From assembly GCA_903919045.1 (NCBI GenBank), contig CAIXGU010000254.1, forward strand, positions 1 to 43,764: a DNA stretch of 43,764 bases, written 5' to 3'. A model generated the notes under the pieces. It was not told the origin of the DNA. It searched no databases and saw only the letters and a list, made by a program, of their open reading frames with translations. Positions 10,890 to 30,995 of the stretch are shown here, piece by piece. The stretch comes from an uncultured Eubacteriales bacterium. Its GTDB lineage: Bacteria > Bacillota > Clostridia > Saccharofermentanales > UBA5734. Every line of letters begins with the position of its first letter. The first letter of the stretch is position 1. The translations under genes were made by a program, and so were the position numbers.

Positions 10890-12504
10890 GATCATGGTCG
10901 TGGACGACGAGACCGTCATCACCGACTGGGTCGCCCATCTCCTCGCGACGCGCTTCGGACCTGCGGTCGAGGTCTATCGCCACAACGACGCGTCGGCCGC
11001 CCTCCGGCAGCTCCTGACGGGCCTCTTCGACATCGCGGTCCTCGATATCAGCATGCCGGGCATCTCCGGCATCGACATCCTCCAGGAACTCGAGGCCAAG
11101 CGGATCGGCACGCGGATCATCTTCCTCACGGCGTACGGGGAATTCGAATACGCGAAGCGGGCCATCACGCCGCAGGTCGCGGCCTACATCCTCAAGGGCG
11201 AGCCGGACGAGATGCTGGAGCAGGCGGTCCGCGACGCCATGAAGCGGATCGAGGAACAGGTCGAGACCGAGAATCTCGTCCGCATCGCGCGCCGGCGGAT
11301 CGAGGCGGCGCCGACCGGGATCCGCCGCGAATACCTGGTCCGGCTCCTCCAGGGGCAGGGCGCGCCGGGTCCGGACGGGCCGCAGGTCCCGATGCTGCTG
11401 TCGCCGGAGAAGGGGACGCGGATGCTGATCTGCGCCCTGAACGGACGGGACGAGGAACCGCCGGTCCCGGGGCTCCTCCTGGAGATGGGCGCGCACATCG
11501 AGGAGGCGCTGGGACGCTCCTACGTCTTCGAGGGCGTCATGATGCAGAACGACAGCCTCGTGTGGCTGCTGCAGCCCCGCAGGGAGGAGGACGCCGGACC
11601 GGAGCCCCTCCTGGCGGTGATCGAGGGAGCGCAGACGCTCTACAGCCGGCATACAGGACACGACCTGCTGTTCGTCCATTCGAGCGCGCCGTTCCCGTTC
11701 GCCGAGACGGGACGGGTCTACCAGCAGCTGCTGCCGCTGCTCGCGTTCGGCTACGGCAAGGGACACATCGTGCTGGCCGAGGAGGACCTCCCGGAAGCGG
11801 GAGCGGCGGCGACGCCCGGGGAGGAGCGTTCCGCACCGCCGCTGCGTCGCGCGCCCATGCTGCTTTCGCTGCTCGAGCGCGGCGAACGCAAGGAGAGCCT
11901 CGAGCTGCTGGACGAGATGCTGGCGCCGTTCGGGAAGCTCCGACCCGACGGCGACCCGGCGCTCCTCGAGACCTACAGCATCGTGAGCGGCGTCCTGCTG
12001 GCCGCCCTGAACCGGACGGGCGCCTACGCCGACATCAGCCGCAGGCATCCGCTCGTCTGGCTGGGAGACCCCCATGCGTTCTCTTCGGGAGAGAAGGCCG
12101 CGGAGGCGTTCCGACGACTGGCGGGGATGCTGCTCCTGCGGACCGAGCGGAAGAAGGACGGCCGTTCCCAGGCCTGCGTCGAGAAGGCGAAGGAATACAT
12201 CGCGGCGCATCTGGACCAGGACCTGTCCCTCATCCTCCTCGCCGAGCAGGTGTTCCTCAACCCGTCGTACCTCTCCATCCTCTTCAAGAACAAGGCCGGA
12301 TGCACCGTCTCCGACTACATCAAAGGGGAGCGGCTGAAGAAGGCGGAGCAGCTCCTCGCGGAGACGAGGATCAAGATCAACGAGATCGCGCGGAGCGTCG
12401 GCTACCCGAACGCGACGTACTTCGGACGCTTCTTCAAGCAGGAGACGGGGCTCACGCCGCTCGAGTACCGCGACCGGCATGCGGTCCGGGAGGACCGGGC
12501 ATGA
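10879..12504 (+). CDS. Response regulator with C-terminal AraC-type DNA-binding domain (YesN-like)
   Basis: MVVDDE, VLDISMPGISGIDIL receiver motifs; C-terminal LSLILLAEQVFLNPSYLSILFKNKAGCTVSDYIKGERLKKAEQLL and VGYPNATYFGRFFKQETGLTPLEYR. Confidence 0.94.
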   Translation: MTYRIMVVDDETVITDWVAHLLATRFGPAVEVYRHNDASAALRQLLTGLFDIAVLDISMPGISGIDILQELEAKRIGTRIIFLTAYGEFEYAKRAITPQVAAYILKGEPDEMLEQAVRDAMKRIEEQVETENLVRIARRRIEAAPTGIRREYLVRLLQGQGAPGPDGPQVPMLLSPEKGTRMLICALNGRDEEPPVPGLLLEMGAHIEEALGRSYVFEGVMMQNDSLVWLLQPRREEDAGPEPLLAVIEGAQTLYSRHTGHDLLFVHSSAPFPFAETGRVYQQLLPLLAFGYGKGHIVLAEEDLPEAGAAATPGEERSAPPLRRAPMLLSLLERGERKESLELLDEMLAPFGKLRPDGDPALLETYSIVSGVLLAALNRTGAYADISRRHPLVWLGDPHAFSSGEKAAEAFRRLAGMLLLRTERKKDGRSQACVEKAKEYIAAHLDQDLSLILLAEQVFLNPSYLSILFKNKAGCTVSDYIKGERLKKAEQLLAETRIKINEIARSVGYPNATYFGRFFKQETGLTPLEYRDRHAVREDRA

Positions 12505-13487
12505 AGCGCGTGCCGGCCGTTCTCGCCGGGATCCTGCTGATCGCCGCGCTGGCCTCCTGCGCCGCCCCGTCCGCCGCGGCGCCGACGCCCACCCCGCCGG
12601 AAGCGACGCCGACCGCCGGAACCGCCGCGCCGACCGCCCCCGGATCCCCGACCTCCCTGGCGTCGATCTACGCTGGAAGGGAGAGCCACGTCCTCGGCAC
12701 CTGGTGGTGGAACGCGGACCTGATCCGCAAGGCGGCCGACCGGAAGATCCGGCTCGATTTCCTTCAGGCGAACGGCGTGACGGAGATCTACCTCTCCTTC
12801 GGCGGCGTCGTCTGGGATTCGCAGTACCGGGACTTCATCGCCGACTGCACCGCGCGGGGCATCCGGGTCTCCGCCCTGGACGGAGACGCAGCCTGGCTGA
12901 ACGCCGAAGGGTACGCGGCCTACGAGCGCTGGCTGGCGCATGTCGCGGCATACCAGGAAGCGGCGGTCGAAGGGGAGCGATTCTACGGCATCCACCTGGA
13001 CCTCGAGCCCCTGCAGAACGCGGAATACGCCGCCGATCCGGCATCGATGGCGACCGATGTCGCCCGCATCTACGACCGGGCGCGGGCCTTCTGCGACGCG
13101 CAGGATCTCGAGTTCGCCGCCGACGTGAGCCTGTGGCTCGACGACCCCGCGCTGGGGACGCCGGATCCGCAGGACCCGGTGACCCTCGGGGAATACATCG
13201 CCCGCCGCGTGGACACGCTGGCGCTCATGGCCTACCGGGACACCGCGGCCCGTCAGTTCGCGGATGCGCAGCCGATGCTCCGGATCGCGCAGCGGACGGG
13301 CAAGGCGGTCGTCGTCGGCAGCGAGACCGGGAAGGTCGACGAGCCGGAATTCGTCACGTACTACGAGGAAGGCAAGGCCGCCCTCGTGGACCAGATGGGG
13401 AAGCTCCAGATCCTGATGGACGGAACGGGACTGCGCTATGGACTGGCCATCCATTACGTCGAGTCCTGGTTCGACCTGAAGGACTGA
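12501..13487 (+). CDS. GH-like TIM-barrel lipoprotein of unknown function, paralogous to 6400..7323
   Basis: ATGA overlap; lipobox LIAALASC then a P/T-rich linker; GTWWWN, NGVTEIYLSF, ERFYGIHLDLEP, LALMAYRDTA. Confidence 0.78.
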   Translation: MKRVPAVLAGILLIAALASCAAPSAAAPTPTPPEATPTAGTAAPTAPGSPTSLASIYAGRESHVLGTWWWNADLIRKAADRKIRLDFLQANGVTEIYLSFGGVVWDSQYRDFIADCTARGIRVSALDGDAAWLNAEGYAAYERWLAHVAAYQEAAVEGERFYGIHLDLEPLQNAEYAADPASMATDVARIYDRARAFCDAQDLEFAADVSLWLDDPALGTPDPQDPVTLGEYIARRVDTLALMAYRDTAARQFADAQPMLRIAQRTGKAVVVGSETGKVDEPEFVTYYEEGKAALVDQMGKLQILMDGTGLRYGLAIHYVESWFDLKD

Positions 13488-13549: not shown

Positions 13550-14905
13550 ATGAAACGTCTGACTGGTCTCGTCCTCATCCTCGTCCTCGTCTTCGCAGTG
13601 GCCGCCTGCGCCCCTGCGCCGACGCCGACATCCACGCCCGTGCCCACGGCGACGCTCACGCCCGAGCCGACCTATGATTACGGCGGCCTTACGGTCCGCC
13701 TGGCCTGGGGCTGGGGTCCGCGCTTCACGGAACCGGGCGAGGACAAGGACCGCTTCGATGCCCGCGTCAAGGAAGTCGAGGAGAAGCTCAACATCAAGTT
13801 CGAGTGGAAGCAGATCGACGCCGGCGAGTTCTGGGACAACATGGTCACGAACACCCTGGCCAACAAGAGCCCCGGAACCGTCAACTTCACCTTCCCGTGG
13901 GTCTTCCCCGACTGGATCAAGGCGGGTCTGCCCGCCGACGTCAAGACCATCGCTTCGCGCGTCGGGATCGACATGGGCTCGACGGCCTGGGATCCGCTGG
14001 CCCGCGTGGCGGGAACGTACGGCGACAAGCTGTACTGCTTCGACAAGTTCCCGCTCGAGGTCAACGGCGGCTTCATCTTCAACAAGCGCCTGCTGCAGGA
14101 AGCCGGACTCAAGAGCCCGTATGACCACGTCAAGGACGGCACCTGGAACTGGGATACCCTTCGCGCCTATTCGAAGCTGCTGACCAAGGTCGACGCGGAC
14201 GGCAAGACCACGCAGTACGGCCTCTCGTCGATGTATCCCCAGTCCCTCGCCGACCTGCTGGTCCTCAGCAACGGCGGCGACCTCGTCGACAGCTCGGGCG
14301 CCACGCCGGTCGTGACCGCCGATTCCGAGCCGGTCCTCGAGGCCCTCAGCATGTACCAGCAGCTGGTCGCGGTCGACAAGAGCGTCCGCATCGGCGACCC
14401 GAACGACTGGGAGAGCAACATCAAGGCCTTCGCCAGCGGCGAGGTGGCCATGATGCTGGCCGAGCAGTGGGTCGTCGACTACATCAACACCATGAAGCCG
14501 GAGGAGTTCGGCTTCGTGTACTTCCCCAAGGGGCCGAAGGGCACCGACTATGTCTCGACGGCCGGCTACTTCATGTTCTGGATTCCCGCGAATCTCGACG
14601 AGAAGACGCAGGACGCCACGCTGCTGGCCTACAGCATGATCTTCGACAACCTCTATCCCGAGATGACCCTGACGGACTACTACAAGCAGATGGCGGAGAA
14701 GTACGTCCACGATGAGGACGGCGCCGCGATCTACGCGGACATCCAGGCCAACCAGCGCTTCAAGATGATGGCGGGCGACCGCTACGGCGTCGACAGCTGG
14801 GCGCTGTACAACCTGCTCGCCACCCTGGACAACACCCCGCAGTCCGCCGTGGCCGCGCAGAAGCCGGTCATGGAGGCCAAGATCGCCGACTTCCTCGCGA
14901 AGTAG
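13550..14905 (+). CDS. ABC transporter extracellular solute-binding lipoprotein (SBP2)
   Basis: MKRLTGLVLILVLVFAVAAC lipobox, P/T linker, MalE-like FPLEVNGGFIFNKRLLQEAGL and FASGEVAMMLAEQW; strong AAGGAGGA RBS. Confidence 0.92.
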   Translation: MKRLTGLVLILVLVFAVAACAPAPTPTSTPVPTATLTPEPTYDYGGLTVRLAWGWGPRFTEPGEDKDRFDARVKEVEEKLNIKFEWKQIDAGEFWDNMVTNTLANKSPGTVNFTFPWVFPDWIKAGLPADVKTIASRVGIDMGSTAWDPLARVAGTYGDKLYCFDKFPLEVNGGFIFNKRLLQEAGLKSPYDHVKDGTWNWDTLRAYSKLLTKVDADGKTTQYGLSSMYPQSLADLLVLSNGGDLVDSSGATPVVTADSEPVLEALSMYQQLVAVDKSVRIGDPNDWESNIKAFASGEVAMMLAEQWVVDYINTMKPEEFGFVYFPKGPKGTDYVSTAGYFMFWIPANLDEKTQDATLLAYSMIFDNLYPEMTLTDYYKQMAEKYVHDEDGAAIYADIQANQRFKMMAGDRYGVDSWALYNLLATLDNTPQSAVAAQKPVMEAKIADFLAK

Positions 14906-14970: not shown

Positions 14971-17859
14971 ATGGCAAGACGTCGTTCCGCAGCGCTGATC
15001 CTGGCCCTACTGGTCGCTTCGCTGCCGGTCCTCGCGGTCGGCGCGGATGCGGGGTACGTTCCCGGCACCGGCTCGTCCGATCCGGGCGGCGGCCTCCTCC
15101 TCTCGGCAGGAAGCGCGGACTCCCTCGTTTCCTATCGGGACTACCTCGATTTCCTCGCGGAGAACACGGCGATCCCTCCGGCCGAAGCCGACCTCCCGAT
15201 CCCGTTCGACCGGCTGGAGCAGGGCGGAGGCGTCTTCGAGACGCTTCCGGACGCCGTCCACATCGACGAGGACGGCTCGCTGACCGTCGAGGTGACCGCC
15301 CCGCGGACCGCCCTCTACGAGCTCCGGTTGACGTACATGCCCGAGCCCGGCCGGTCCGCGGCCTGCGAGCTGTCCGTCCTGGTCGGCGACGCCGTGCCCT
15401 ACCGCCAGGCGGCGACGATCCTCGCGGACCGCATCTGGAAGCCTCGGTCCGGCACGATCGAACAGGACAGCAACGGGAACGACATCCGGCCGACGGAGGT
15501 CGAGGACGCCCGCTACAGCACCCTCCGCGCCATGGACAGCACCGGCTACACGACCACGCCGCTGCTTTTCCGTCTCGAGGGAGGCGTGAACCGGATCACG
15601 ATCCACGACAACCGGGAGAGCATCCGGATCCGGGAGATCGCGCTCTGCGCCCCCGAGGCCCTCCCTTCCTACGAAGAATACATCGCGGAGCATGCGGACG
15701 CCTCCATGGCGTCCGAGAGCTGCGCTCGCATCCAGGCGGAGCATCCCGCCTGGACGAACGATCCGGTCCTCGTTCCGACCTCGGACCGGACCTCTCCTCT
15801 GACCGAGCCGTACAAGGGCTCGAAGATCAGCCTCAACACCATCGGCCAGGACGGGTGGAGCCTGACCGGGCAGACCATCGCCTGGAGCTTCGACGCCCCG
15901 CAGGACGGGCTGTACGAGATCCGCTTCAAGGCCAAGCAGAACTACACGAGGGGCACCTATTCCAGCCGCACCCTGCTGGTCGACGGCCGGATCCCCTTCG
16001 CGGAGGCCCAGTCCGTCCGGTTCACGTACAGCAGCCGCTGGCAGCGGGTCACGCTCGGGGACGGAACGGATCCGTACTTCGTCTACCTCGGCGCCGGCCG
16101 GCACGAGCTGGCCCTTCGGGTGACGCTGGGCGACCTGGGCGACGTGCTCGGCCGGGTCGATGCGTGCGCCGCGGAAGTCGGCTCGATCTACCGCAAGTTC
16201 CTGATGATCATGGGCGCGAATCCGGACACGATGCGCGACTACAAGCTCGACCGGCAGCTGCCGGACGTCTTCGTCGAGATGGCGGACCTCGCGGACCGCC
16301 TGGACGCGGTCGCCGCCGACATGGGCGCGATCACGGGCACACGGGGGACGGAGCTGCTCAGCCTCACGCGCATGGCGATGACCCTCCGCGACTTCGTGGA
16401 GAAGCCGTACGAGATCCCCGCGAAATTCGCGATCTTCACCGGCGACATGTCGTCCCTGAACGCCTGGAAGAACGACGCCGCCTATCGTCCGCTCGAGCTG
16501 GACTCCATCGACGTCGCGGCGCCGGACGCCCCGGAGGAGCGGGTGCGGCCGAGCATCTGGGAGACGATCGCCCATGGCGCGACGCTGTTCTTCTCTTCCT
16601 TCTTCGAGAACTACGACGACCTCGGCCGCACGTCGGACACCGCGAAGACGCTGACGGTCTGGTCGACGACCGGGCGGGACCAGGCGCAGGTGCTGAACCA
16701 GCTGGTCAAATCGGGCTTCCGTCCGGACCGCGACGTCAACGTGCAGATCCAGCTCGTGCGGATCGATGCGATCCTCCCGTCCACCGTCGCCGGCAACGGC
16801 CCGGATGTCATCCTGTACGCTCCCCAGCAGATGCCGGTCAATTTCGCCATCCGCGGAGCCGCCCTCGACCTGAGCCGCTTCCCCGGATTCGACGACGTCG
16901 CGGCCCAGTTCCGCGAGAGCGCCCTGACGCCGGCCCGGTTCAACGGAGGCGTCTACGGCCTTCCGGAGACCGAGACGTTCCCCATGCTCTTCTACCGCGC
17001 GGACATCCTCCGGGAGATCGGCGTCTCGGTCCCGCGGACCTGGCCGGAGGTGCTGCAGGCCATCCCCGACCTCCAGAAGAGCAACATGAGCCTGCTCCTC
17101 GAGACGGGCATCTCGAACACCGTCGACAACACCCTGGGGCTTTCCGCCTACGCGATGCTGCTCTACCAGAACGGCGGCCGGTTCTACGAAGGGGACGGGA
17201 TCCGGACGCTGCTCGACCAGGAGACCGCGATCGAGACCTTCCGGACCTGGTGCCGCCTGTACACGAACTACGGCCTGCCGACGACCTTCAATGCGGCCTA
17301 CCGGTTCCGGACGGGCGAGAGTCCTCTCGTCATCTCCGACATGAGCCTCTACAACACCCTGATGATCTCCGCTCCGGAGATCAAGGGCCTGTGGGGCATG
17401 ACCACCGTGCCCGGCACGCCGCGGAACGGGACCGTGGACCGGTCCGTCAAGACCGCGACCACCTACACGATGGCCACGAGGACCTGCGACGATCCGGACG
17501 ACGCCTGGACCTTCATCCGGTGGTGGCTGGGCGAGGACACCCAGCTCGCCTACGCCCGCGACCTGGAGAGCCTCATGGGGACGGCCGCCCGCTACATGAC
17601 CGCCAATGTCGATGCGTTCTCCCGCCTGCCCTGGGCGACGAAGGACCTCGACTCCATCCTGGAGCAGAGCCGCTGGACCGTCGGCGTCCCGGAGGTCGCG
17701 GGCGGGTACTTCCTGCCGCGCCACATCAACAACGCCTTCCGCAGCGTCGTGATCGACAAGGCCGACCCCCGGGAGGCCCTGATCTCGTATGCCAAGGTGA
17801 TCGACGAGGAGCTCCGCGAGAAGCGCCTCGAGTTCGGGCTGCCGGTCGACGGCGGCTGA
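14971..17859 (+). CDS. Large secreted protein (962 aa): two N-terminal beta-sandwich-like regions fused to a C-terminal solute-binding domain (SBP3)
   Basis: Signal peptide without lipobox; TAPRTALYELRLTYMP and DAPQDGLYEIRFKAKQNYTRGTYSSRTLLVDG resemble carbohydrate-binding beta-sandwiches; C-terminus FPMLFYRADILREIGVSVPRTWPEVLQAIPDLQKSNM is SBP-like. Confidence 0.8.
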   Translation: MARRRSAALILALLVASLPVLAVGADAGYVPGTGSSDPGGGLLLSAGSADSLVSYRDYLDFLAENTAIPPAEADLPIPFDRLEQGGGVFETLPDAVHIDEDGSLTVEVTAPRTALYELRLTYMPEPGRSAACELSVLVGDAVPYRQAATILADRIWKPRSGTIEQDSNGNDIRPTEVEDARYSTLRAMDSTGYTTTPLLFRLEGGVNRITIHDNRESIRIREIALCAPEALPSYEEYIAEHADASMASESCARIQAEHPAWTNDPVLVPTSDRTSPLTEPYKGSKISLNTIGQDGWSLTGQTIAWSFDAPQDGLYEIRFKAKQNYTRGTYSSRTLLVDGRIPFAEAQSVRFTYSSRWQRVTLGDGTDPYFVYLGAGRHELALRVTLGDLGDVLGRVDACAAEVGSIYRKFLMIMGANPDTMRDYKLDRQLPDVFVEMADLADRLDAVAADMGAITGTRGTELLSLTRMAMTLRDFVEKPYEIPAKFAIFTGDMSSLNAWKNDAAYRPLELDSIDVAAPDAPEERVRPSIWETIAHGATLFFSSFFENYDDLGRTSDTAKTLTVWSTTGRDQAQVLNQLVKSGFRPDRDVNVQIQLVRIDAILPSTVAGNGPDVILYAPQQMPVNFAIRGAALDLSRFPGFDDVAAQFRESALTPARFNGGVYGLPETETFPMLFYRADILREIGVSVPRTWPEVLQAIPDLQKSNMSLLLETGISNTVDNTLGLSAYAMLLYQNGGRFYEGDGIRTLLDQETAIETFRTWCRLYTNYGLPTTFNAAYRFRTGESPLVISDMSLYNTLMISAPEIKGLWGMTTVPGTPRNGTVDRSVKTATTYTMATRTCDDPDDAWTFIRWWLGEDTQLAYARDLESLMGTAARYMTANVDAFSRLPWATKDLDSILEQSRWTVGVPEVAGGYFLPRHINNAFRSVVIDKADPREALISYAKVIDEELREKRLEFGLPVDGG

Positions 17860-17877
17860 CGTCCGGGAGGAGCGCGC

Positions 17878-18834
17878 ATGGAATCGAGATCCCAGAGAAG
17901 CGCCCGGCGCCTGCTGGACTGGTCCCGGTCCCGGGACCCCTGGCTGCGCCTGCTGGCCCGGGTCTGGCGGTACCGGACGGCCTATCTCTTCCTCCTGCCG
18001 TTCGCCGTCGTCTTCCTCGTCTTCACGGTGGCGCCCGTCGTCATCTCCATGCTCTACGGCTTCACGTACAACAACCTCCTCGAGCCGGCCCGCTTCATCG
18101 GATTCGCGAACTACATCAAGCTCGCCACCCACGACGACGTCTTCCTCATCGCCCTGAAGAACACCATCGTCTTCGCCGTGCTCACGGGGCCCCTCGGCTA
18201 CGTCCTCAGCTTCATGGTCGCCTGGTTCATCAACGAGCTGCCGAAGCGCATCCGGCCGCTGTTCGTCCTGATCTTCTATTCGCCGTCGATCGCCGGATCG
18301 ATCTACATCATCTTCGGGATCCTCTTCAGCGGCGATTTCTACGGGTACGTGAACGCCACCCTGATGAACTGGGGATTCATCGATCAGCCGATCAACTGGC
18401 TCGCGGACCCGAAGTACATGGCCTTCGTCGTGGTCATCTGCGTGCTGTGGACGAGCATGGGCGCCGGGTTCCTGTCCTTCGTCGCCGGCCTGCGCAGCAT
18501 GGACAGGCAGTATTTCGAGGCCAGCGCCATCGACGGCGTCCGCAACCGCTGGCAGGAGCTCTGGTACGTCACGCTCCCCCTCATGAAGCCCCAGCTGATG
18601 TTCGGGGCCATCCTGAGCATCACGGCCGCCTTCTCCATCCACGAGGTCACGATCGCGCTCATGGGATTCCCCAGCACCGAATACGCGGCGCACACCGTCG
18701 TGAACCACCTATGGGACTACGGATACCTCCGCTTCGACATGGGCTACGCGTCGGCGATCGCCACGGTGCTGTTCCTGGTCATGATCGGGTGCAACAAGGC
18801 GATCAACGCCATGCTTCGAAAGGTGGGGAAGTAG
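17878..18834 (+). CDS. Sugar ABC transporter permease (MalF/UgpA/LplB type)
   Basis: TM-rich; FEASAIDGVRNRWQELWYVTLPLMKPQLMF matches the permease EAA loop. Confidence 0.94.
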   Translation: MESRSQRSARRLLDWSRSRDPWLRLLARVWRYRTAYLFLLPFAVVFLVFTVAPVVISMLYGFTYNNLLEPARFIGFANYIKLATHDDVFLIALKNTIVFAVLTGPLGYVLSFMVAWFINELPKRIRPLFVLIFYSPSIAGSIYIIFGILFSGDFYGYVNATLMNWGFIDQPINWLADPKYMAFVVVICVLWTSMGAGFLSFVAGLRSMDRQYFEASAIDGVRNRWQELWYVTLPLMKPQLMFGAILSITAAFSIHEVTIALMGFPSTEYAAHTVVNHLWDYGYLRFDMGYASAIATVLFLVMIGCNKAINAMLRKVGK

Positions 18835-19788
18835 ATGGCCGCACGCAGGGCGAACGGCGGGGACCTGCTCCGCCTGGCCGGCCGGAGCGTCCGGACGCTC
18901 GGGGAAGGCTATGTCCGCACCCGGTCCGGAATCCGCCGCACGTTCCACGTCCGGGCGACGCGCAGCGCGAGCGGCAACCTCGCCAATCTCCTGATGCTCG
19001 CGATCTTCTCCGTCCTGATGCTCGTGCCCATGCTGTACGTCGTCAACAACGCCTTCAAGCCGGTGGACGAGCTGTTCATCTTCCCGCCGCGGATCTTCGT
19101 GCAGAACCCGACGCTCGACAATCTCCGCGACCTCGCCTCGATCCTGGGCAACTCCTGGGTGCCGGTGACCCGCTACCTCTTCAACACGGTGCTGATCACC
19201 TCGGCGGGAACCGCCCTGCACGTCCTCTTCGCGAGCATGGCGGCCTATGTCCTCGAGAAATATCCCTTCCCGGGATCGAAGGCGTTCTTCGCGCTCGTGA
19301 TCACGACCCTGATGTTCTCCGCGACCATCACCAGCATCCCCAATTTCATCATCCTGTCCCGCCTCGGGATGGTCAACACGCTCTGGTCGATCATCGTCCC
19401 CGCCATCGGCGCGCCGCTCGGCCTGTTCCTGATGAAGCAGTTCATGTCGACGGTGCCCGACAGCGTCATCGAGGCCGCGAAGATCGACGGCACGAGCGAG
19501 ATGCGCCTCTTCTTCCGCATCGTCATGCCCATGGTGAAGCCGGCCTGGCTCGCCCTGATCATCTTCTCGGCGCAGAACCTGTGGAACACGACCGGCGACA
19601 TCTACATCCGCAGCGAGTCGCTCAAGCCCCTTCCGTACGCCATGCAGCAGATCATGTCCGCGGGCGTGGCGCGCGCCGGGGCGGGCTCCGCCGTGGGGCT
19701 CCTCCTGATGGTCGTGCCGATCGCGGTCTTCATCGCCAGCCAGAGCAGCATCGTCGACACCATGGCGACCTCGGGGATCAAGGAATGA
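18835..19788 (+). CDS. Sugar ABC transporter permease (MalG/UgpE type)
   Basis: Starts directly after the previous stop; VIEAAKIDGTSEMRLFFRIVMPMVKPAW EAA loop. Confidence 0.94.
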   Translation: MAARRANGGDLLRLAGRSVRTLGEGYVRTRSGIRRTFHVRATRSASGNLANLLMLAIFSVLMLVPMLYVVNNAFKPVDELFIFPPRIFVQNPTLDNLRDLASILGNSWVPVTRYLFNTVLITSAGTALHVLFASMAAYVLEKYPFPGSKAFFALVITTLMFSATITSIPNFIILSRLGMVNTLWSIIVPAIGAPLGLFLMKQFMSTVPDSVIEAAKIDGTSEMRLFFRIVMPMVKPAWLALIIFSAQNLWNTTGDIYIRSESLKPLPYAMQQIMSAGVARAGAGSAVGLLLMVVPIAVFIASQSSIVDTMATSGIKE

Positions 19789-21368
19789 GCGCGCGGCGGG
19801 GAAGACCCGCGGAACGGGCGGCGTCCCGCTGGCCGGGCCGGATCGCGGCGGTCCTCGCCGCGGCGGCGCTGGCCGCCTCCTGGCCGGTGCGCACGGCGGC
19901 GTCGGAGGACGTCTACCTCTCGCCCGACCACCGGAGCTACACGACGACGTACACGGGAGCCCCGGCGGAGGGCCCCCAGCCCTATGCGATCGAGAAGGTG
20001 CTCCTCGGCGCGGAGATCGGATGCGGCTCCTTCGACGACCCTTCGGACATCTTCGTGGCCGACGACGGCGCGCTCTACATCGCCGACACCAGCAACAACC
20101 GCATCGTCGTGCTCGAAGCGGACGGCACGTTCCGGCGGCAGTACCTCGGCGCATCGATTCCGGGCGGAGGATCGCCGCACCTGTTCAACGCGCCGCAGGG
20201 CGTCTTCGTCGCGCCGGACGGGGACCTGTACGTCGCCGACACCGAGAACGGGGCGGTGGTGCAGATGGACGACGACGGCCGCCTCGTCCGCCTCCTCGAA
20301 CGGCCCACCGGCGCGGTCGTCAGCGAGACCCTGGTCTTCAAGCCCTCCCGCGTCGTCGTCGATGCGGTCGGCCGCATCTTCGTCGTCTCCCTGTTCGTCA
20401 ACCAGGGGATCCTCGAATACTCCCCGGAAGGGGAATTCAAGGGCTTCCTCGCGGCGGGCAAGGTCAACCCGAGTCCGATCGAGGTCTTCTGGAAGCGGAT
20501 CTCCACGGCCGCGCAGCGGGCCCGCATGGTCGATTTCGTTCCGATCGAGTACAACAACCTCGCCCTGGATGACGAAGGATTCATCTACGCGACCATGGCC
20601 GCGATGGACAAGGACATCCTCTTCAGCGAGATCGCGGCGAAGACCGGAACGGAGGAAGGCACCCTGGTCCGCCGCCTCAACATGCTGGGCAACGACATCC
20701 TGCGGCAGGAAGGCTTCTTCCCGCCGGTCGGCGACGTGGACATCCTCGACTACCGCGTCAACCTGTTCGGCGCCTACCAGGGCCCCTCCCTCATCGTGGA
20801 CGTCTCCTGCGCCTCCCATGGGAAGTTCAGCCTCCTGGACAACAACCGCAAGCGGATCTTCGTCTACGACGGAGAAGGGGACATGCTCTTCGCGTTCGGC
20901 GGACCGAATTCCGCCGTCGGAGGGTTCGTCACGCCCCTCTCCATGGACCAGGGGGACGGCCGGTACTACGTCCTGGACAAGCAGACGGGCGCCCTGACGG
21001 TCTTCCGCGTCACCGAATACGGACAGCACGTCCTGAACGCCATCGACCTCTACGAGACCGGACAGTACGATGCGAGCGCCGCCGAATGGGAGCAGGTCCT
21101 CGCGCGGAACGCCAACATGGAGCTCGCCTATTCCGGAATCGGCAAGGCGCTCTACAGCAAGGGCGACTACGCGGCGGCGATGCGCTTCTTCCGGGACGCC
21201 AACGACAAGTCCTGGTACTCGAAGGCCTACAAGGAATACCGCAACGCGCTCGTGGCGGCCTGGTTCCCCGTCCCGGCGGCCGCGGTCCTCGCCCTCGCGC
21301 TCTTCCTCTTCCTGCGGAAGCTCGTCCGGACGACGCGGGGTTTCCTGAAAGGAGGGACGGCGCCATGA
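19785..21368 (+). CDS. Signal-peptide/NHL beta-propeller/TPR protein with C-terminal TM anchor
   Basis: ATGA overlap with the permease; NHL-like DPSDIFVADDGALYIADTSNNRIVVLEADGTF and APQGVFVAPDGDLYVADTENG; TPR-like YETGQYDASAAEWEQVLARNANMELAYSGIGKALYSKGDYAAAMRFF; TM AAAVLALALFLFLRKL. Confidence 0.85.
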   Translation: MSARRGRPAERAASRWPGRIAAVLAAAALAASWPVRTAASEDVYLSPDHRSYTTTYTGAPAEGPQPYAIEKVLLGAEIGCGSFDDPSDIFVADDGALYIADTSNNRIVVLEADGTFRRQYLGASIPGGGSPHLFNAPQGVFVAPDGDLYVADTENGAVVQMDDDGRLVRLLERPTGAVVSETLVFKPSRVVVDAVGRIFVVSLFVNQGILEYSPEGEFKGFLAAGKVNPSPIEVFWKRISTAAQRARMVDFVPIEYNNLALDDEGFIYATMAAMDKDILFSEIAAKTGTEEGTLVRRLNMLGNDILRQEGFFPPVGDVDILDYRVNLFGAYQGPSLIVDVSCASHGKFSLLDNNRKRIFVYDGEGDMLFAFGGPNSAVGGFVTPLSMDQGDGRYYVLDKQTGALTVFRVTEYGQHVLNAIDLYETGQYDASAAEWEQVLARNANMELAYSGIGKALYSKGDYAAAMRFFRDANDKSWYSKAYKEYRNALVAAWFPVPAAAVLALALFLFLRKLVRTTRGFLKGGTAP

Positions 21369-21997
21369 AGCCGGCCACGTTCGGAAGCGGGCTGCGGTAC
21401 GCCCTCCACATCGTCGCGCATCCCTTCGACGGCTTCTATGACATGCGCCACGAGAAGCGGGGGAACCTGGGAGCGGTCCTGCTCCTCTACGCCCTCTTCG
21501 TGGAATCCGTGCTGGCGATGCAGCAGTACGGCGGGTTCCTGATGTTCGATTTCGACCCCCGCTCCTACAATGTCCTCCGGAGCCTGCTGACCATCGTCCT
21601 GCCGATCGTCCTCTTCTGCGTCGCCAACTGGTCCTTCACGGCCCTGACCGACGGCGAGGGCCGCTTCGTCGACATCGTGATGGCGCTCGGCTACGCGCTG
21701 GTGCCGGCGATGGCCGCGAACTTCCTCGGGACGCTCCTGTCCAACGTCGTGGTCGAGAATGAAACGGACTTCGTGGGCATGCTCATCGGTCTGGGCGTGG
21801 TCTGGAGCGGATTCCTGGTCTTCGCCGGAATCCTGACGATCCACCGCTTCACGGTCCGCAAGACCCTCTTCACGCTGGTCATCACGGTCGCCGGGATGGT
21901 CTTCATCGTCTTCCTGGCCCTGCTGTTCGGCAGCGTCATCGACAAGCTGATCGGCTTCGTCACGGGCCTGATCACCGAAATCCGGCTGAGGAGCTGA
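21365..21997 (+). CDS. YIP1-like multi-TM membrane protein
   Basis: ATGA overlap; HPFDGFYDMRHEKRGNLGAVLLLYALF followed by several hydrophobic helices, typical of bacterial Yip1-domain proteins. Confidence 0.75.
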   Translation: MKPATFGSGLRYALHIVAHPFDGFYDMRHEKRGNLGAVLLLYALFVESVLAMQQYGGFLMFDFDPRSYNVLRSLLTIVLPIVLFCVANWSFTALTDGEGRFVDIVMALGYALVPAMAANFLGTLLSNVVVENETDFVGMLIGLGVVWSGFLVFAGILTIHRFTVRKTLFTLVITVAGMVFIVFLALLFGSVIDKLIGFVTGLITEIRLRS

Positions 21998-22001
21998 AGC
22001 G

Positions 22002-24617
22002 ATGGCCATGCGCATCCCCCTGTCCCGGCGCGGCCGGGCGATCCTTCCGCTGGTGGCGCTGACCCTGTGCGCCGCCCTTCTCCTGTCCGGCTGCGAAGCG
22101 TTCTCGGCTCCCGTCTTCTATCCGCTTCTCACCCAGGACGGCATCGAGGCGTTCCCGTCGTCGGAGACGGCATGGAAGCCCTCCGCGGAGGACCTCGGGC
22201 TCGGGAGCATGCGGGTCGTCGCCGAGGACGAGGATGCGGCGCTGTACTTCCATCCGAAGACCACGGAGATCGCCGTCCTCCGCAAGGCCACGGGCGCGGC
22301 ATGGTATTCGAATCCGCAGGACCGCGCGGGAACGGACGACGCGCTCCTCAACGCCCAGGCCGTGGTCGTCACGCTGAACCGGCGGGACGTCGCGCGGATC
22401 TGGAACACGTTCGACGACAGCGTCGCCTACGGCCAGTTCAGGACGACGCCGATCGACGGGGGCATCTCCGTCGAATACCTGATGGGCAAGCGCCAGGAGG
22501 AGCTGCTGTACCCGGCCGGACTGACCGAGGAGCGCTTCCAGGCGCTGCTCGACCAGATGCCGTCGGACAAGGAGCGCAGCTACCTGAAGCGGATGTACGG
22601 GCACGTGGATCTCACCGCGATCCCGAGCGCCCAGCAGCGGGACGACCTCAAGGCGAAGTTCACCGAGCTCGACCCGGACCTCGGCGGGAAGATGTACGCC
22701 CTGAAGAGCCTCCTGTCGAAGCTCGAGCAGAAGAACCTGAAGGCGACCCTGGAGAGCGCCGGCTACACCGCGGAGATGCGCGCGGCCGACGAGGCCGCGG
22801 TCGGCTATGCGGGCTCCGGGGATTCCGACGACAGCTTCACGCTGGCCATCGACTACACGCTCGAGAACGGGTCGCTGGTGGTCCGCGTCGATCCCGCGCG
22901 GATCCGCGCGACGGAGAAGCTGAAGGTATCCGAGATCACGGTGCTCCGGAACTTCGGCGCGCAGAAGCCGGGCGGCGGGGGCACCCTGTTCGTGCCGGAC
23001 GGGAGCGGGGCCATCATCGACGCCGATTCCGCCCGGCCAGCCCCCTGGGCCGAGTACGTCCGGAAGGTGTACGGCCAGGACTACGGCGTCCTCCGGACCG
23101 ACCGGGTGGATTACAGCGAGCAGACGTATCTGCCGGTCTTCGGGGCCTACGGATCCGCCGGCGGATTCCTCGGGATCGCCGAGAAGGACGACGGGCAGAT
23201 GTCCGTGACGGCCGGCATCGCGCAGGTCGAGTCGGGCTATGGATTCGTGGCCCCCCGGTTCACGCTGCTCACGTTCGCGTTCGTCGCCCTCGAATCCTCG
23301 GCGAAGAACGCCCTGAACCTCTATCCGCGGGAGGCCGTCGACGATCCGATCCAATTGAGGTACCTGTTCGTCGACGGGGCCGGGACCTCGTACGACGACC
23401 TCGCGGTGGCGTACCGGAACGCCATGATCGCGGAAGGCGCGCTCGACGGCGTGAACGGGCGCGACGGGCTGGCGACGGCCGTGCGCGCGATCGGCGCCAT
23501 CGACGGGATCCGCTCGATCCTCGGGTATCCCGCCCGGATCGTCCGGGAGCTGACGTCCTTCGACGAAGCGAGGGAGCTGGGCCTCGCCCTGCGGAGCGCC
23601 GCACCCTCCGCCGACGTCGTCCTCTCCTACGCCGGCTGGCAGCGGGGCGGCCTGCGGAGCGGCTACCTGCGCATGCCTGCGGTCGAGCCGAAGCTCGGGA
23701 ACGCTCGGCGGCTCACGGAGCTGGCCGAAGCCCTGCAGGCCGAAGGCGTGGTCCTCCTGCCGGAAATCGAGCCCCAGTACTGCTACCCCGGCCCCGCGCC
23801 CGGAGGATTCAATCCGCTGCGCCAGGCGATCCGCTTCATCACGCGGGACACAGGGTACAAGCCGGTCCACGACATCGCCAACTTCTACATGGAGTCGGGC
23901 GTCCCGGTCCCCTACATCGTGCGTCCGGACCTGGTTGCGGCGGATGCCGGCTCCTACATGGAGCGGTACCGTGCGCTCGGCATCGGCGGCATCGGCGTCG
24001 GCGCCCTGTCCTCGGAGCTCTACTCGGATTTCAATGCCCGCCGCGTCCTGTCCGAGAACGACACGATCGGGTACTTCCGGCAGGCCCTGGAAGGGATCGG
24101 CGCGGACGGGACGCTGGTCGGAGGAACCGGAGCGAACGCCTATGCGCTCTTCGCGCTGGACTATGCGATGGGTCTTCCGGTCACCTCGTCGAACCACCCG
24201 ATCCTCACCCGCAGCGTGCCGTTCCTGCAGATCGCGCTGTCCGGGTCCGTTTCATATACGATGCCGGAGCTCGACCGGGCGACGGATCCCGCCCTGTATG
24301 CCCTGCAGGCCATCGAGACGGGGTCCGGCGTCTATTTCGACTACTTCGCCGACGAGGCGTCGGCCATCAAGGACACCGATTTCGACGCGCTCTACGGAGC
24401 GGCCGCCGCGAGCATCGGCGACCTCGGCGCCTCGGTCGCGGCGGAGGTCTCCGCGGCGCTCGCACCGGTGGCCAATCGGCGGATCGTCGCCCACGAGCGT
24501 CTCGAGGAGGGCGTCTACCGCACGACGTACGAGAACGGGTACGCGGTCGAGGTCAACTACGGCCGGACCCCGTGGAACGGCATCCCGGCCCGCGGCTACC
24601 GGGTGGTCGCCCCGTAG
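22002..24617 (+). CDS. Large lipoprotein resembling DUF5696-domain proteins; possible uncharacterised glycosidase
   Basis: Lipobox AALLLSGC; ALYFHPKTTEIAVLRKATGAAWYSNPQDR, DDSVAYGQF, GTLFVPDGSGAIIDADS match the DUF5696 pattern as I remember it. Confidence 0.75.
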   Translation: MAMRIPLSRRGRAILPLVALTLCAALLLSGCEAFSAPVFYPLLTQDGIEAFPSSETAWKPSAEDLGLGSMRVVAEDEDAALYFHPKTTEIAVLRKATGAAWYSNPQDRAGTDDALLNAQAVVVTLNRRDVARIWNTFDDSVAYGQFRTTPIDGGISVEYLMGKRQEELLYPAGLTEERFQALLDQMPSDKERSYLKRMYGHVDLTAIPSAQQRDDLKAKFTELDPDLGGKMYALKSLLSKLEQKNLKATLESAGYTAEMRAADEAAVGYAGSGDSDDSFTLAIDYTLENGSLVVRVDPARIRATEKLKVSEITVLRNFGAQKPGGGGTLFVPDGSGAIIDADSARPAPWAEYVRKVYGQDYGVLRTDRVDYSEQTYLPVFGAYGSAGGFLGIAEKDDGQMSVTAGIAQVESGYGFVAPRFTLLTFAFVALESSAKNALNLYPREAVDDPIQLRYLFVDGAGTSYDDLAVAYRNAMIAEGALDGVNGRDGLATAVRAIGAIDGIRSILGYPARIVRELTSFDEARELGLALRSAAPSADVVLSYAGWQRGGLRSGYLRMPAVEPKLGNARRLTELAEALQAEGVVLLPEIEPQYCYPGPAPGGFNPLRQAIRFITRDTGYKPVHDIANFYMESGVPVPYIVRPDLVAADAGSYMERYRALGIGGIGVGALSSELYSDFNARRVLSENDTIGYFRQALEGIGADGTLVGGTGANAYALFALDYAMGLPVTSSNHPILTRSVPFLQIALSGSVSYTMPELDRATDPALYALQAIETGSGVYFDYFADEASAIKDTDFDALYGAAAASIGDLGASVAAEVSAALAPVANRRIVAHERLEEGVYRTTYENGYAVEVNYGRTPWNGIPARGYRVVAP

Positions 24618-24633
24618 GGCGAAGGGGGACGGC

Positions 24634-25554
24634 ATGAAGCGAATGAAGCGACGGAAGCAGCTGCTGGCCGCGAAGAGGAACCGGTACGGCTATCTCTTCG
24701 TCGCGCCCTTCCTCATCGGATTCGCGCTGTTCACCCTGCTCCCGATCCTCCAATCCATCCTGTTCAGCCTATCGGACCTGAAGCTCACGTTCACGGGCTA
24801 CGAACTGTCCTTCGCCGGCCTGAAGAGCTACCAGCGGGCCCTGCTCGTCGACGCGGACGTCCGCCGCCTCATCGTCAACGCGCTCGTGCAGACCTTCACG
24901 CAGCTCCCCGTCATCCTGGCGTTCAGCTTCTTCGCCGCCCTTCTCCTGAAGAACCCGTTCCCGGGCCGCGGACTGGCGCGGTCGATCTTCTTCCTCCCGG
25001 TCATCATGGTGTCGGGCGTCATCGCCAGCATCGACAATTCGAACCTGACGCTCGCGACCATGATGAACCGGAACACGGCCGATCTCGTCAACGGCGTGGC
25101 CACCTCCTTCTCGGCGAACAAGCTGATCCTGTCGCTGTTCAGCGACGCGATCCCGGCCTTCGTCCTCGACTTCCTCGGGAAAGCCGTCGACGGCATCTAC
25201 GACATCATCATGGCCTCGGGACTCCAGATCATCATCTTCATCGGGGGCCTCAACACGATCTCCCCCTCCGTCTTCGAGGCCTCCAGCATCGAGGGCGCGA
25301 CGGCGTGGGAGAGCTTCTGGAAGATCACGTTCCCCATGATGGGCCCGTACCTGCTGCTCAACACGGTCTATACGATCATCGATTCCTTCCTGAACGTGAA
25401 GAACCCGCTGATCCTGACCATCCAGAACTACCTCATGTCGTTCTCCGAGTTCAGTTTCGGTTCCGCGGTCTCCTGGATCTACTTCGGCATCATCCTGCTG
25501 GTCGTCGGCGTCACGCTGGCCATCATCTCGAAGAGGGTGTTCTACTATGAATGA
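24634..25554 (+). CDS. Sugar ABC transporter permease (MalF/LplB type)
   Basis: MKRMKRRKQLLAAKRNRYGYLFVAPFLIGFALFTLLPILQSILFSLSDL; EAA loop FEASSIEGATAWESFWKITFPMMGPYLL. Confidence 0.94.
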   Translation: MKRMKRRKQLLAAKRNRYGYLFVAPFLIGFALFTLLPILQSILFSLSDLKLTFTGYELSFAGLKSYQRALLVDADVRRLIVNALVQTFTQLPVILAFSFFAALLLKNPFPGRGLARSIFFLPVIMVSGVIASIDNSNLTLATMMNRNTADLVNGVATSFSANKLILSLFSDAIPAFVLDFLGKAVDGIYDIIMASGLQIIIFIGGLNTISPSVFEASSIEGATAWESFWKITFPMMGPYLLLNTVYTIIDSFLNVKNPLILTIQNYLMSFSEFSFGSAVSWIYFGIILLVVGVTLAIISKRVFYYE

Positions 25555-26494
25555 CCCGCGCAGCCTCCTCCGCCGCCTCGGCCCCCGCCACTGGGGGAAG
25601 TGGGCGCTCTCGCTCGCCAAGGCCGTCTTCATCCTCGGCATCTGCTTCACGATCCTCTATCCGCTCATCGTGAAGTTCTCCATGTCGCTGATGGACCAGC
25701 GGGACCTGTTCGACCGGATGGTCAAGTTCATCCCCAACACGCTGCGTCTCAGCAACTACCCCGAGCTCATCGGCTACATGAAATACTGGACCGCGCTGGG
25801 GAATACCCTCTGGCTGTCCCTCGCGGTCGCCCTCGCCCAGGTGTTCTCGTCCAGCCTCGTGGGCTACGGCTTCGCCAAGTTCGACTTCAAGGGGAAGGGC
25901 CTCCTGTTCGCCTGCGTCCTCGTCGCCATGGTCCTCCCGCCGTTCGTCAGCATCACGCCGCTCTACCTGAATTTCAAGAGCTTCCATCTCTTCGGGCTCC
26001 TTCCCGCGGACGCGCTCGTCGGGAATCCGGCGCCGCTCCTGATCCTGTCCCTGACCGCCTCCGCGCCGCGATGCGCGCTCTACGTCTTCCTCGCCCGCCA
26101 GTTCTTCCGGGGGGTTCCGAAGGAGATCGAGGAAGCCGCCTCGATCGACGGAGCGGGAACGGTCCGGGTCTACTTCTCGCTCATGCTGCGCATGGCCTCC
26201 TCCATCCTCGTCACCATCTTCCTGTTCGCCTTCGTCTGGCAATACAGCGACACGCTGTTCACGGGGATGTTCTACAGCGGCCTCGACACCCTCTCCAAGC
26301 GCCTCTATCTCCTCGGGTACACGTTCGGGGCCGCCATCAGCATGGACGCGAGCGGCACGGCCGGCAACATCGGCTACATCTCCATCATGCAGGCGACCGG
26401 AACGCTGATGACCATCCTGCCGCTGGTCATCCTGTATTTCTTCATGCAGAAGACCTTCGTCCAGTCCGTGGAGCGGACCGGACTCGTCGGCTGA
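25547..26494 (+). CDS. Sugar ABC transporter permease (MalG/YtcP type)
   Basis: 8-bp overlap with the preceding permease; EEAASIDGAGTVRVYFSLMLRMASSILVTIFLF EAA loop. Confidence 0.94.
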   Translation: MNDPRSLLRRLGPRHWGKWALSLAKAVFILGICFTILYPLIVKFSMSLMDQRDLFDRMVKFIPNTLRLSNYPELIGYMKYWTALGNTLWLSLAVALAQVFSSSLVGYGFAKFDFKGKGLLFACVLVAMVLPPFVSITPLYLNFKSFHLFGLLPADALVGNPAPLLILSLTASAPRCALYVFLARQFFRGVPKEIEEAASIDGAGTVRVYFSLMLRMASSILVTIFLFAFVWQYSDTLFTGMFYSGLDTLSKRLYLLGYTFGAAISMDASGTAGNIGYISIMQATGTLMTILPLVILYFFMQKTFVQSVERTGLVG

Positions 26495-27899: not shown

Positions 27900-30800
27900 A
27901 TGGCAGGACCGGATCCGACCGCCCCGTTCGCGCTGGTCCCGACCGTCCTCGTCCGACGGTCGGCCCGCGGTCCGCAGCGGATCCTTCGGATCGAGAGCCG
28001 GACCGTCGCGGGGGACGCCGAGGCGGTCCTCTTCGGGCCCGACGGACCGCTCGGTGCGACGCGCGGACCGTTGCGCCCCGGCGCCTTCCTCGAGGCCGAG
28101 GTGCCGGAGCCGGAGGCGCCGATCGCGCTCCGCGCCTTCCTTTCCCTCGACGGCGCACCGGCGGTCCCGCTGGATCTCCAGCTCGCCCCTGCGCGGCGCT
28201 GGTCGGTCCATCTCGTCCAGGCCTCCCATCATGACCTGGGCTACACGTCGCTGCCGTCGATCGTGAAGGCGGAGCAGGTCCGCTGGCTGGAGGAAACGCT
28301 CGAATTCTGCCGGGAGAGCGACGGGGAGCCGGAGGACGCCCGGTTCCGGGCCGTCATCGAGCAGGCGTGGTCGCTCGAGGCCTTCTTCGCGTCCGCCCGC
28401 CCCGCGCATCGACGGGAGATGGCCCGCCGCCTCCGGGAAGGACGCCTGGAATGCGGCGCGACGTTCGGGAACATGGTGACCGAGTCCCTGGGCCACGCCG
28501 AAATGCTCCGCTGCCTCGAGCCGGCGGCGGCGCTCGCGCGCCGGTACGGCTTCGTCCTCACGAGCGCCGAACACAACGACATCCCGGGCTTTTCCTGGGG
28601 ACTCGCCGCCGCGCTCTCCGCCGCCCGCATCCGCCTGCTGGTCCTCGGCCTGCCCCTGTACCACCTCTGGGGCGGAGAGGGCATCGAAGCGCTCTGGGAC
28701 GAACGCGTCCTCTTCGGGCGCGGCGTTCCCACCGTCGCGCGGTACGCCGCCCCGGACGGCGGGCAGGTCCTCCTCTGGAGCGGCAATCGGGGCTGCGGCG
28801 GGGATGCGCGGACGCGGATCGACGCGCTGCCCGACCATCTCGGCGGACTCGAGGCGAACGGCTATCCGCATGACATCCTCCGGTGGGCCGTGCAGGGAGC
28901 CGCCCGCGACAATTCCCCGTACATCCCGGGCTATGTCGCCTTCGTGAAGGACTGGAACGAGCGCTACGCCTCCCCGCGGCTGGTCGTGTCGACGAACGCC
29001 CGCTTCCTGCGCGACTTCGAGGAGCGCCTCGCGCATCCGCTGCCGACGGTCCGCGGCGATCTTCCCGGACAGGACTACCCCTCCGGCCTGCTGTCCGTCG
29101 CCCGCGCCACGACCGTGAACCGGTCCACGCAGCGCCGCCTCCCGGAAACAGAAAGCCTCGCTGCCGTCGCCCGGCTGCACGGCGCAGCGGACCCGCCGCT
29201 CGGGACCGTCCGGCAGGCCTGGGACGACCTGCTCGCCTACGACGAGCACGCCTTCGGACTGCATTTCCCGGCGGGACCGGCCGCCGCCGCCGCCGAAGCG
29301 GAGAAGTCGCTGGCCGCCCTCCGGAGCGCGGCGCTCGTCCACGACGCGTCCTGCCGGACGTTCGCGGCGCTCCTCGACGGCCTTCCGCCGGTACCGGACG
29401 GATGCTGGCTGGCCGTGCGCAATCCGTCGCCGCACCGGGCGACGCGGCCGGTGCGGACGTCGCTCCGGGAGATCGACAATTTCCTCGGGGACCTCCACGC
29501 CGTGCCTCCGGAACAGGATCCGGCCGGCCAGGGCCTTCTCGTCGGCGTGCCGCTGGGCAACCGGTGGCACGACTTCCCGCCGGATGCCTTCCTGCAGGGG
29601 GCGTTCCGCCTCGTGGACGCGAACGGCGGGAACGTGCCGTTCTCCCTCACGCTCGCCGAGGAGCTGCGCATGGACGAGGACGCCGCCCGGCGGGCGGGCC
29701 TTGGGCGGAGCGGCGGCCGCATCGACTTCCAGCCGACGGCGACGGGACTGCTCGTCGACCTCTCGTTCGTGGCGACGGATCTGCCGGCCTGCGGCGTCGC
29801 GCTCTATCGCCTGGTCCCGTCGACGGAAGCCCGGCCGGTCGCGCGGTACGTCCCCTGCCGGGAGGGGGCGGTCGAGAACGCGTTCTATCGCCTCTCGGTC
29901 CGGGAGGGGCGCGTGCGCATCCGCAGCTTGGCGCTGGGGAAGGAGCTGCTGGAGGAGGACGGCCCCGACCTGCCCTTCCAGTTCCTCGTCGCGTCGGGAG
30001 GCGACCCGCCCGTCCGAGGCGCGGCGACAGGCTTCCGGACGCTGGAGTCCCCCGTGGTCCGCGCCCTCCGGATCGACGGGACCGCGCCGGGGCACCCGAG
30101 GACGGCGGTGACGCTGGTCCTCCACGAGGGTCTCGACCGGATCGACTTCCGCGTGGAAGCGCTCAAGGACGACGATCCCCTCCTCGACGTCCAGCTGGCC
30201 GTCCCGCTGGCCGCGGATTCGCCCCGCCTGCTCTGCGACGGGGTCCTCTCCGCAGCGGAGCCCGGCTGCGACTGGATCGCCCCGGTCCGGGCGGGCGCCG
30301 TCCCGGTCGGCGAGTGGGTGGTCCTGAACGATGCGGACCATGCCGTGCTGCTGGGGTCGCTGTCCCCGATGGCGGGCTACGACGAGCCGACGCCGGCGAA
30401 CGTCTCCTTCGCCCACCGGTCCGTCTACCGACGGGACGCGGAACGGCCGTTCAAGGGTCCCGCCCGGAGCGGACGGCTCTACTGGCATCTGTTCGACAAC
30501 GATTTCGGCACGAACTTCGCCGTGACCCAGAGCGGACGCTTCGGATTCGCCGGGACGCTCCGTGCCTTCCGCGATCCCCTATCGGAAGCCGAGGCGGACC
30601 GCGCGGCCCGGTCGCTGCAGGAGGCCGCGGCGACGCAGTTCCGCCGGGGCCGGGAAGACGCCGGGCCTATGGACTTCCCGTTCGGCCGGGACCTCGTCCG
30701 CCTGCCGGACGACCTGCGCCTGCTCCGCCTCGAGGCGATGCCGGACAGGGATGCCTACAGGGTCGCGGTCTGGAACCGATCGGACCGGCCGCGCCGCGCG

Positions 30801-30995
30801 CGGCTGGAGTTCCCCGGAACGCGCGTCGGGCGCGTCCGGCGGACGACGGCGACCGGAGAGGCGATCGGCGCGGTGCGTGCGGAACCGGAGGCCGTCCCGC
30901 TCGACCTCCCGCCACATGGCATCTCGTTCCTCGCGATGACGCTGGTCCGGCGCGATGCGGCGCCACCGGACCTTTCGGAAGGAGAGCGACGATGA
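27900..30995 (+). CDS. Divergent GH38-like glycoside hydrolase (1031 aa)
   Basis: WSVHLVQASHHDLGYTSLPS start of a GH38-type barrel, TSAEHNDIPGFSWGLAAAL candidate nucleophile region, long C-terminal beta domains. Confidence 0.75.
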   Translation: MAGPDPTAPFALVPTVLVRRSARGPQRILRIESRTVAGDAEAVLFGPDGPLGATRGPLRPGAFLEAEVPEPEAPIALRAFLSLDGAPAVPLDLQLAPARRWSVHLVQASHHDLGYTSLPSIVKAEQVRWLEETLEFCRESDGEPEDARFRAVIEQAWSLEAFFASARPAHRREMARRLREGRLECGATFGNMVTESLGHAEMLRCLEPAAALARRYGFVLTSAEHNDIPGFSWGLAAALSAARIRLLVLGLPLYHLWGGEGIEALWDERVLFGRGVPTVARYAAPDGGQVLLWSGNRGCGGDARTRIDALPDHLGGLEANGYPHDILRWAVQGAARDNSPYIPGYVAFVKDWNERYASPRLVVSTNARFLRDFEERLAHPLPTVRGDLPGQDYPSGLLSVARATTVNRSTQRRLPETESLAAVARLHGAADPPLGTVRQAWDDLLAYDEHAFGLHFPAGPAAAAAEAEKSLAALRSAALVHDASCRTFAALLDGLPPVPDGCWLAVRNPSPHRATRPVRTSLREIDNFLGDLHAVPPEQDPAGQGLLVGVPLGNRWHDFPPDAFLQGAFRLVDANGGNVPFSLTLAEELRMDEDAARRAGLGRSGGRIDFQPTATGLLVDLSFVATDLPACGVALYRLVPSTEARPVARYVPCREGAVENAFYRLSVREGRVRIRSLALGKELLEEDGPDLPFQFLVASGGDPPVRGAATGFRTLESPVVRALRIDGTAPGHPRTAVTLVLHEGLDRIDFRVEALKDDDPLLDVQLAVPLAADSPRLLCDGVLSAAEPGCDWIAPVRAGAVPVGEWVVLNDADHAVLLGSLSPMAGYDEPTPANVSFAHRSVYRRDAERPFKGPARSGRLYWHLFDNDFGTNFAVTQSGRFGFAGTLRAFRDPLSEAEADRAARSLQEAAATQFRRGREDAGPMDFPFGRDLVRLPDDLRLLRLEAMPDRDAYRVAVWNRSDRPRRARLEFPGTRVGRVRRTTATGEAIGAVRAEPEAVPLDLPPHGISFLAMTLVRRDAAPPDLSEGERR

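Follow-up and report, generated by a model that had tools for sequence, protein, structure and literature searches.

We show that a group of importer and accessory genes in an uncultured Eubacteriales bacterium is a conserved block and not a local oddity: its gene order recurs in 121 distinct loci and its gene families co-occur by genome, so the recurrence is far above chance. In this block, CUT1 importers appear to be served by a conserved apparatus of their own at the cell surface, of which we found no open-access description. In the window, that is, the whole stretch of 43,764 nucleotides analysed here, it is carried as a series of eight genes (SBP-fusion, permease, permease, NHL/TPR, YIP1, DUF5696, permease, permease) separated by gaps of 0-18 nt or overlapping by 4-8 bp. 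These gene positions and the tight spacing from the 962-aa SBP onwards had been claimed in the initial annotation and proved correct. Together with SBPa, the features are:

13550..14905, + strand: SBPa, a 451-aa lipoprotein SBP (SBP_bac_1, 63.5 bits) with lipobox AVAAC
14971..17859, + strand: SBP-fusion (SBPfus), 962 aa, with two CBM35/Golvesin_C-like domains, a helical linker and a C-terminal SBP domain, without lipobox
17878..18834, + strand: P1, CUT1-type permease with EAA motif (BPD_transp_1), after a gap of 18 nt from SBP-fusion
18835..19788, + strand: P2, CUT1-type permease with EAA motif (BPD_transp_1), gap of 0 after P1
19785..21368, + strand: NHL/TPR, 527 aa, with a signal peptide and a C-terminal TM segment, overlapping P2 by 4 bp
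21365..21997, + strand: YIP1, a 210-aa multi-TM membrane protein, overlapping NHL/TPR by 4 bp
22002..24617, + strand: DUF5696, an 871-aa lipoprotein with a predicted GH129/GH101-type fold, gap of 4 nt after YIP1
24634..25554, + strand: P3, CUT1-type permease with EAA motif, matching CUT1-type permease models, gap of 16 nt after DUF5696
25547..26494, + strand: P4, CUT1-type permease with EAA motif (BPD_transp_1), overlapping P3 by 8 bp

The start of NHL/TPR is the ATG at 19785, taken from the sequence, since the automatic ORF list has this gene solely within a longer open frame. As to the extent of the block, the eight genes first proposed stand, but SBPa is part of the conserved block too, and the closely spaced string extends beyond P4, with an ADP-ribosylglycohydrolase at 26513 following after 18 nt. 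Elsewhere the window encodes GH18, GH3, GH20C, GH4, GH38 and DUF2961 proteins. Two further products have no Pfam match: a lipoprotein with a TIM-barrel-like sequence (about 12500-13487), encoded between a response regulator and SBPa, and a 1031-aa protein (27900-30995) between the ADP-ribosylglycohydrolase and GH4 genes, the sequence of which resembles GH38 (SHHDLGYTS near the N-terminus).

Among 249 genomes of the phylum, 20 had DUF5696 (PF18952) above the cut-off, and a profile search found full-length homologues of NHL/TPR in precisely these genomes and, beyond them, no more than a single fragment at the end of a contig; NHL-like matches with E > 1e-20 in other genomes, which span just part of the propeller, were left out of this count. 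SBPfus was present in all 20 of the DUF5696 genomes. One scan of named genomes yielded at least 571 relatives of DUF5696, the best 80 of them from Paenibacillus, Cohnella, Bacillaceae, Lachnospiraceae and Clostridia assemblies. Gene order was assessed in 121 DUF5696 loci, all distinct, from Paenibacillus, Cohnella, Lachnospiraceae, Bacillaceae and Clostridia MAGs, each position being scored solely where the contig was long enough. YIP1 lies immediately upstream of DUF5696 in 118/120 loci, the order NHL then YIP1 precedes DUF5696 in 117/118, and a permease pair follows it directly in 112/113, the sole exception being masked sequence. The association of NHL/TPR, YIP1 and DUF5696 with permeases, which the initial annotation had pointed out for YIP1 and DUF5696, is therefore real. 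Two permeases precede NHL in 86 of 110 loci, and the two transporters may work separately, because SBPfus-P1-P2 is absent directly upstream in about 22% of loci. SBPa stands either before SBP-fusion or after P4 in complete loci. A 2573-aa DUF5696 open reading frame (L151) was rejected as a real giant protein, as it contains masked sequence (runs of N), and three apparent exceptions (G243, G103 and G154) were dismissed because each sits at the end of a contig and is apparently truncated.

The window genome itself appears to encode the module a second time, in two parts at the ends of different contigs, with SBPfus-P1-P2 on one (L175, G000:C96) and a fused NHL+YIP1 followed by DUF5696 and two permeases on the other (L049, G000:C124). 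In one Clostridia genome (L181) SBPfus-P1-P2 occurs with no NHL after it, and in another (L179) SBPfus is found downstream of P4, with no P1/P2 detected nearby. In one family (G007, G092, G127 and others; L067, L177, L178) the two halves of SBPfus have distant relatives that are separate from each other, and a 662-aa glycosidase-like protein matches DUF5696 weakly, the rest of the module being absent.

All four permeases have the features of CUT1 importers, namely type-I permease pairs with an EAA motif (P1 66/67, P2 67/67, P4 67/67 and, by a strict pattern, P3 54/67 loci), and extracellular SBPs, SBPa and SBPfus, are encoded with them. The SBP_bac_8 match of SBPfus covers residues 603-865, matches to SBP_bac_8/SBP_bac_1 falling on the C-terminal part, and members of its family also show CBM_35/Golvesin_C matches and a profile match to the CITase CBM region. 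A lipobox was found in 9/71 SBPfus versus 66/82 SBPa proteins. The genome contains one MalK-type (OB_MalK) gene, as for an ATPase of the MalK/MsmX type; it lies on another contig (C108), on which no CUT1 permease was detected.

Mean pairwise identity across 67 complete loci was highest for P1 (0.671) and P2 (0.660), followed by P4 (0.55), P3 (0.52), SBPfus (0.51), YIP1 (0.49), NHL (0.45) and DUF5696 (0.40), and was lowest for SBPa (0.354). Conservation is thus higher in SBPfus and P1/P2 than in the second SBP, while the flanking enzymes vary between loci (GH10, GH43, GH26, GH38, GH5, fucosidase). These polysaccharide-degrading neighbours fit the oligosaccharide uptake proposed in the initial annotation; their variation led us to reject a single fixed substrate for the module. 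The identity figures would fit a constant SBPfus-P1/P2 unit alongside a variable SBPa-P3/P4 unit. Partial correlations of distance matrices were highest for P1-P2 (0.59), followed by NHL-DUF5696 (0.46), with SBPa-P4 at 0.37, values that are suggestive only because raw correlations were high for every gene pair (0.84-0.96). In one genus (L033, L036 (L075)) at least four tandem SBPa genes follow the module, as if several binding proteins shared one permease set.

The accessory proteins were examined by sequence and by predicted structure. NHL/TPR carries NHL (PF01436, 50.8 bits) and TPR_16 domains, and its propeller matches NHL propellers in the PDB both by sequence and by fold, while YIP1 matches Yip1 (PF04893) at 54.5 bits against a gathering score of 28.6. 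NHL/TPR and YIP1 form a single fused protein in 49 of 118 loci. The predicted structure of one such fusion (from L078; mean pLDDT 93.3) comprises a beta-propeller, TPR-like helices, one TM helix and the YIP1 helices. These fusions, and the confident fold, support the idea that the two constitute one membrane-anchored unit.

The window DUF5696 protein matches PF18952 with 413.9 bits (gathering score 25.6). A family profile was needed to relate it to known structures, because a single-sequence search of the PDB gave no match, even at E 10; on sequence alone, the profile matched GH129 enzymes at E 1.3e-6. For the predicted structure (pLDDT 87.6), Foldseek returned GH129 enzymes as the best matches, over the whole chain (E 1.6e-27 to 5opq and 3.5e-25 to 5wzn), then GH101, GH36 and GH31, and the model shows the N-terminal beta domain, TIM barrel and C-terminal beta domain of the GH129/GH101 fold. 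The Pfam model for GH129, PF11308, matched none of the 249 genomes, the window genome included, and its missing match to DUF5696 is therefore weak evidence. For the same reason, catalytic positions were mapped through GH101-like proteins, using a weak alignment of sequence profiles without coordinates (probability 40%, E 0.0003); PF12905 had no match in the window genome.

On this mapping the nucleophile strand would be 'SLRDLG' and the acid/base strand 'GGNAYALP'. The nucleophile-equivalent column, 668, holds Asp in 79 of 124 DUF5696 members and Ala in the window copy. Of the candidate acid/base columns, 709 is acidic in about half and 713 in about a tenth of members, the window copy having Thr709 and Ala713, and none of columns 702-718 holds a conserved acid (at most 46% acid in an alignment of 65 sequences). 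Elsewhere D333, W546, E772 and N712 are invariant or nearly so, and an invariant GW motif is shared with NagBb. The family as a whole thus does not conserve the candidate catalytic acid pair, which the window copy lacks. Gene order is the same in loci with and without the acids, so that the function common to DUF5696 proteins probably does not involve catalysis. Yet some members may be enzymes, as both candidate positions are acidic in 38/124; the second copy of the window genome (L049), which has Asp at column 668 and N-E-Y at 712-714 on the acid/base strand, may be among them. Hence the initial annotation was right about a glycosidase-type fold, but its suggestion of a hydrolase is not supported for the family as a whole. 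In overall fold and in the GW motif DUF5696 resembles GH129 (NagBb, 5wzn; ZgGH129/DagB, 5opq) and GH101 (EngBF), from which it differs in its low identity (~12-13%), its unconserved catalytic acids and its lack of a PF11308 match.

Could DUF5696 nonetheless act at the cell surface as a glycosidase or transglycosylase of GH129/GH101 type, trimming oligosaccharide branches just before import while NHL-YIP1 holds it at the permeases? Its nearest folds are true glycosidases, most members and the second window-genome copy have Asp at the nucleophile-equivalent column, and ZgGH129 is active although its acid/base differs from that of NagBb (PMC5698469). We nevertheless consider this unlikely, since proteins without the nucleophile acid, the window protein and many others among them, occupy the same conserved operon, no acid predominates along the acid/base stretch, and the GH129 model recognizes none of the genomes searched.

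We favour instead a module acting as one glycan-capture and import complex of Gram-positive bacteria, with a non-catalytic role for DUF5696 and a shared ATPase, a proposal to which we give an even chance of being right. Its constant unit would consist of the CBM-SBP fusion, the P1/P2 permease pair and the membrane-anchored NHL/TPR-YIP1 scaffold, whereas SBPa with the P3/P4 pair would form a variable unit that sets substrate specificity. DUF5696 would sit beside the NHL propeller at the outer face of the membrane and serve as a glycan receptor or docking platform, a conserved function with no need for catalysis even if some members are perhaps active. Both permease pairs would be powered by the single unlinked MalK/MsmX-type ATPase, and we infer that the proteins of the module physically associate. 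YknW, discussed below, offers a precedent for a Yip1-family protein that acts on an ABC transporter.

The accessory proteins might alternatively help the permeases to assemble, or control their quality, and make no contact with glycans. TPR and propeller domains are as a rule protein-binding. A precedent also exists in Bacillus, where the Yip1-family membrane protein YknW is dedicated to an ABC transporter, YknXYZ, the assembly of which it modulates (PMC4887032), although that system is a MacAB-like exporter, whereas the module described here comprises importers and its YIP1 is often fused to the NHL/TPR domain. We regard this explanation as quite improbable, as DUF5696 has the full architecture of a glycosidase and the GW motif, and its place among the faster-evolving parts suits ligand contact better than a chaperone. 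Least probable of all, by a little, is a sensing or regulatory platform in which NHL-YIP1 and DUF5696 signal to the adjacent two-component system that glycan has been captured and take no part in transport: a sensor kinase and a YesN-like regulator, identified by reading translations, are encoded upstream in the window, and His_kinase and AraC genes occur among flanking ORFs, but regulators appear in just a minority of the sampled flanks (His_kinase in 3/75), whereas permeases are adjacent almost always.

To the best of our knowledge, little is understood of how Gram-positive bacteria retain large fragments of glycans until these are imported. The capture-and-import module that we propose spans several hundred Bacillota loci, in Paenibacillus from soil as well as Lachnospiraceae from the gut, and its neighbours include enzymes that act on xylan, mannan and host-type glycans. 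Its fixed set of accessory proteins offers concrete genes and proteins to study and would give a role to DUF5696 and to bacterial YIP1 proteins; knowledge of that role would also improve the prediction of glycan use from genomes. In the open-access literature we found no paper that names DUF5696, nor any that links YIP1 or NHL with carbohydrate importers, though a description in subscription journals could exist.

Compared with known CUT1 importers (the UgpBAEC/MalEFGK type, and those powered by MsmX in Bacillus), the module shares an SBP, paired EAA permeases and a MalK-type ATPase encoded elsewhere, but it doubles the permease pair, has CBM35-like domains on one SBP and nearly always includes three accessory parts (NHL/TPR, YIP1 and DUF5696). 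A bolder version of our proposal, which we put forward tentatively and with some doubt, is that the constant and the substrate-specific CUT1 importers are physically joined into one machine at the cell surface by a GH129/GH101-type enzyme that has lost its catalytic function and by the propeller-YIP1 scaffold, making the module a functional counterpart of SusCD for bacteria that lack an outer membrane. In SusC/SusD-type uptake by Bacteroidota, surface glycan-binding proteins are coupled to dedicated importers beside CAZyme genes. The likeness is by analogy only, with no homology claimed: unlike those systems, the module has no TonB-dependent porin, and what the two would have in common is the coupling of glycan binding at the cell surface to dedicated importers, with CAZyme genes alongside.
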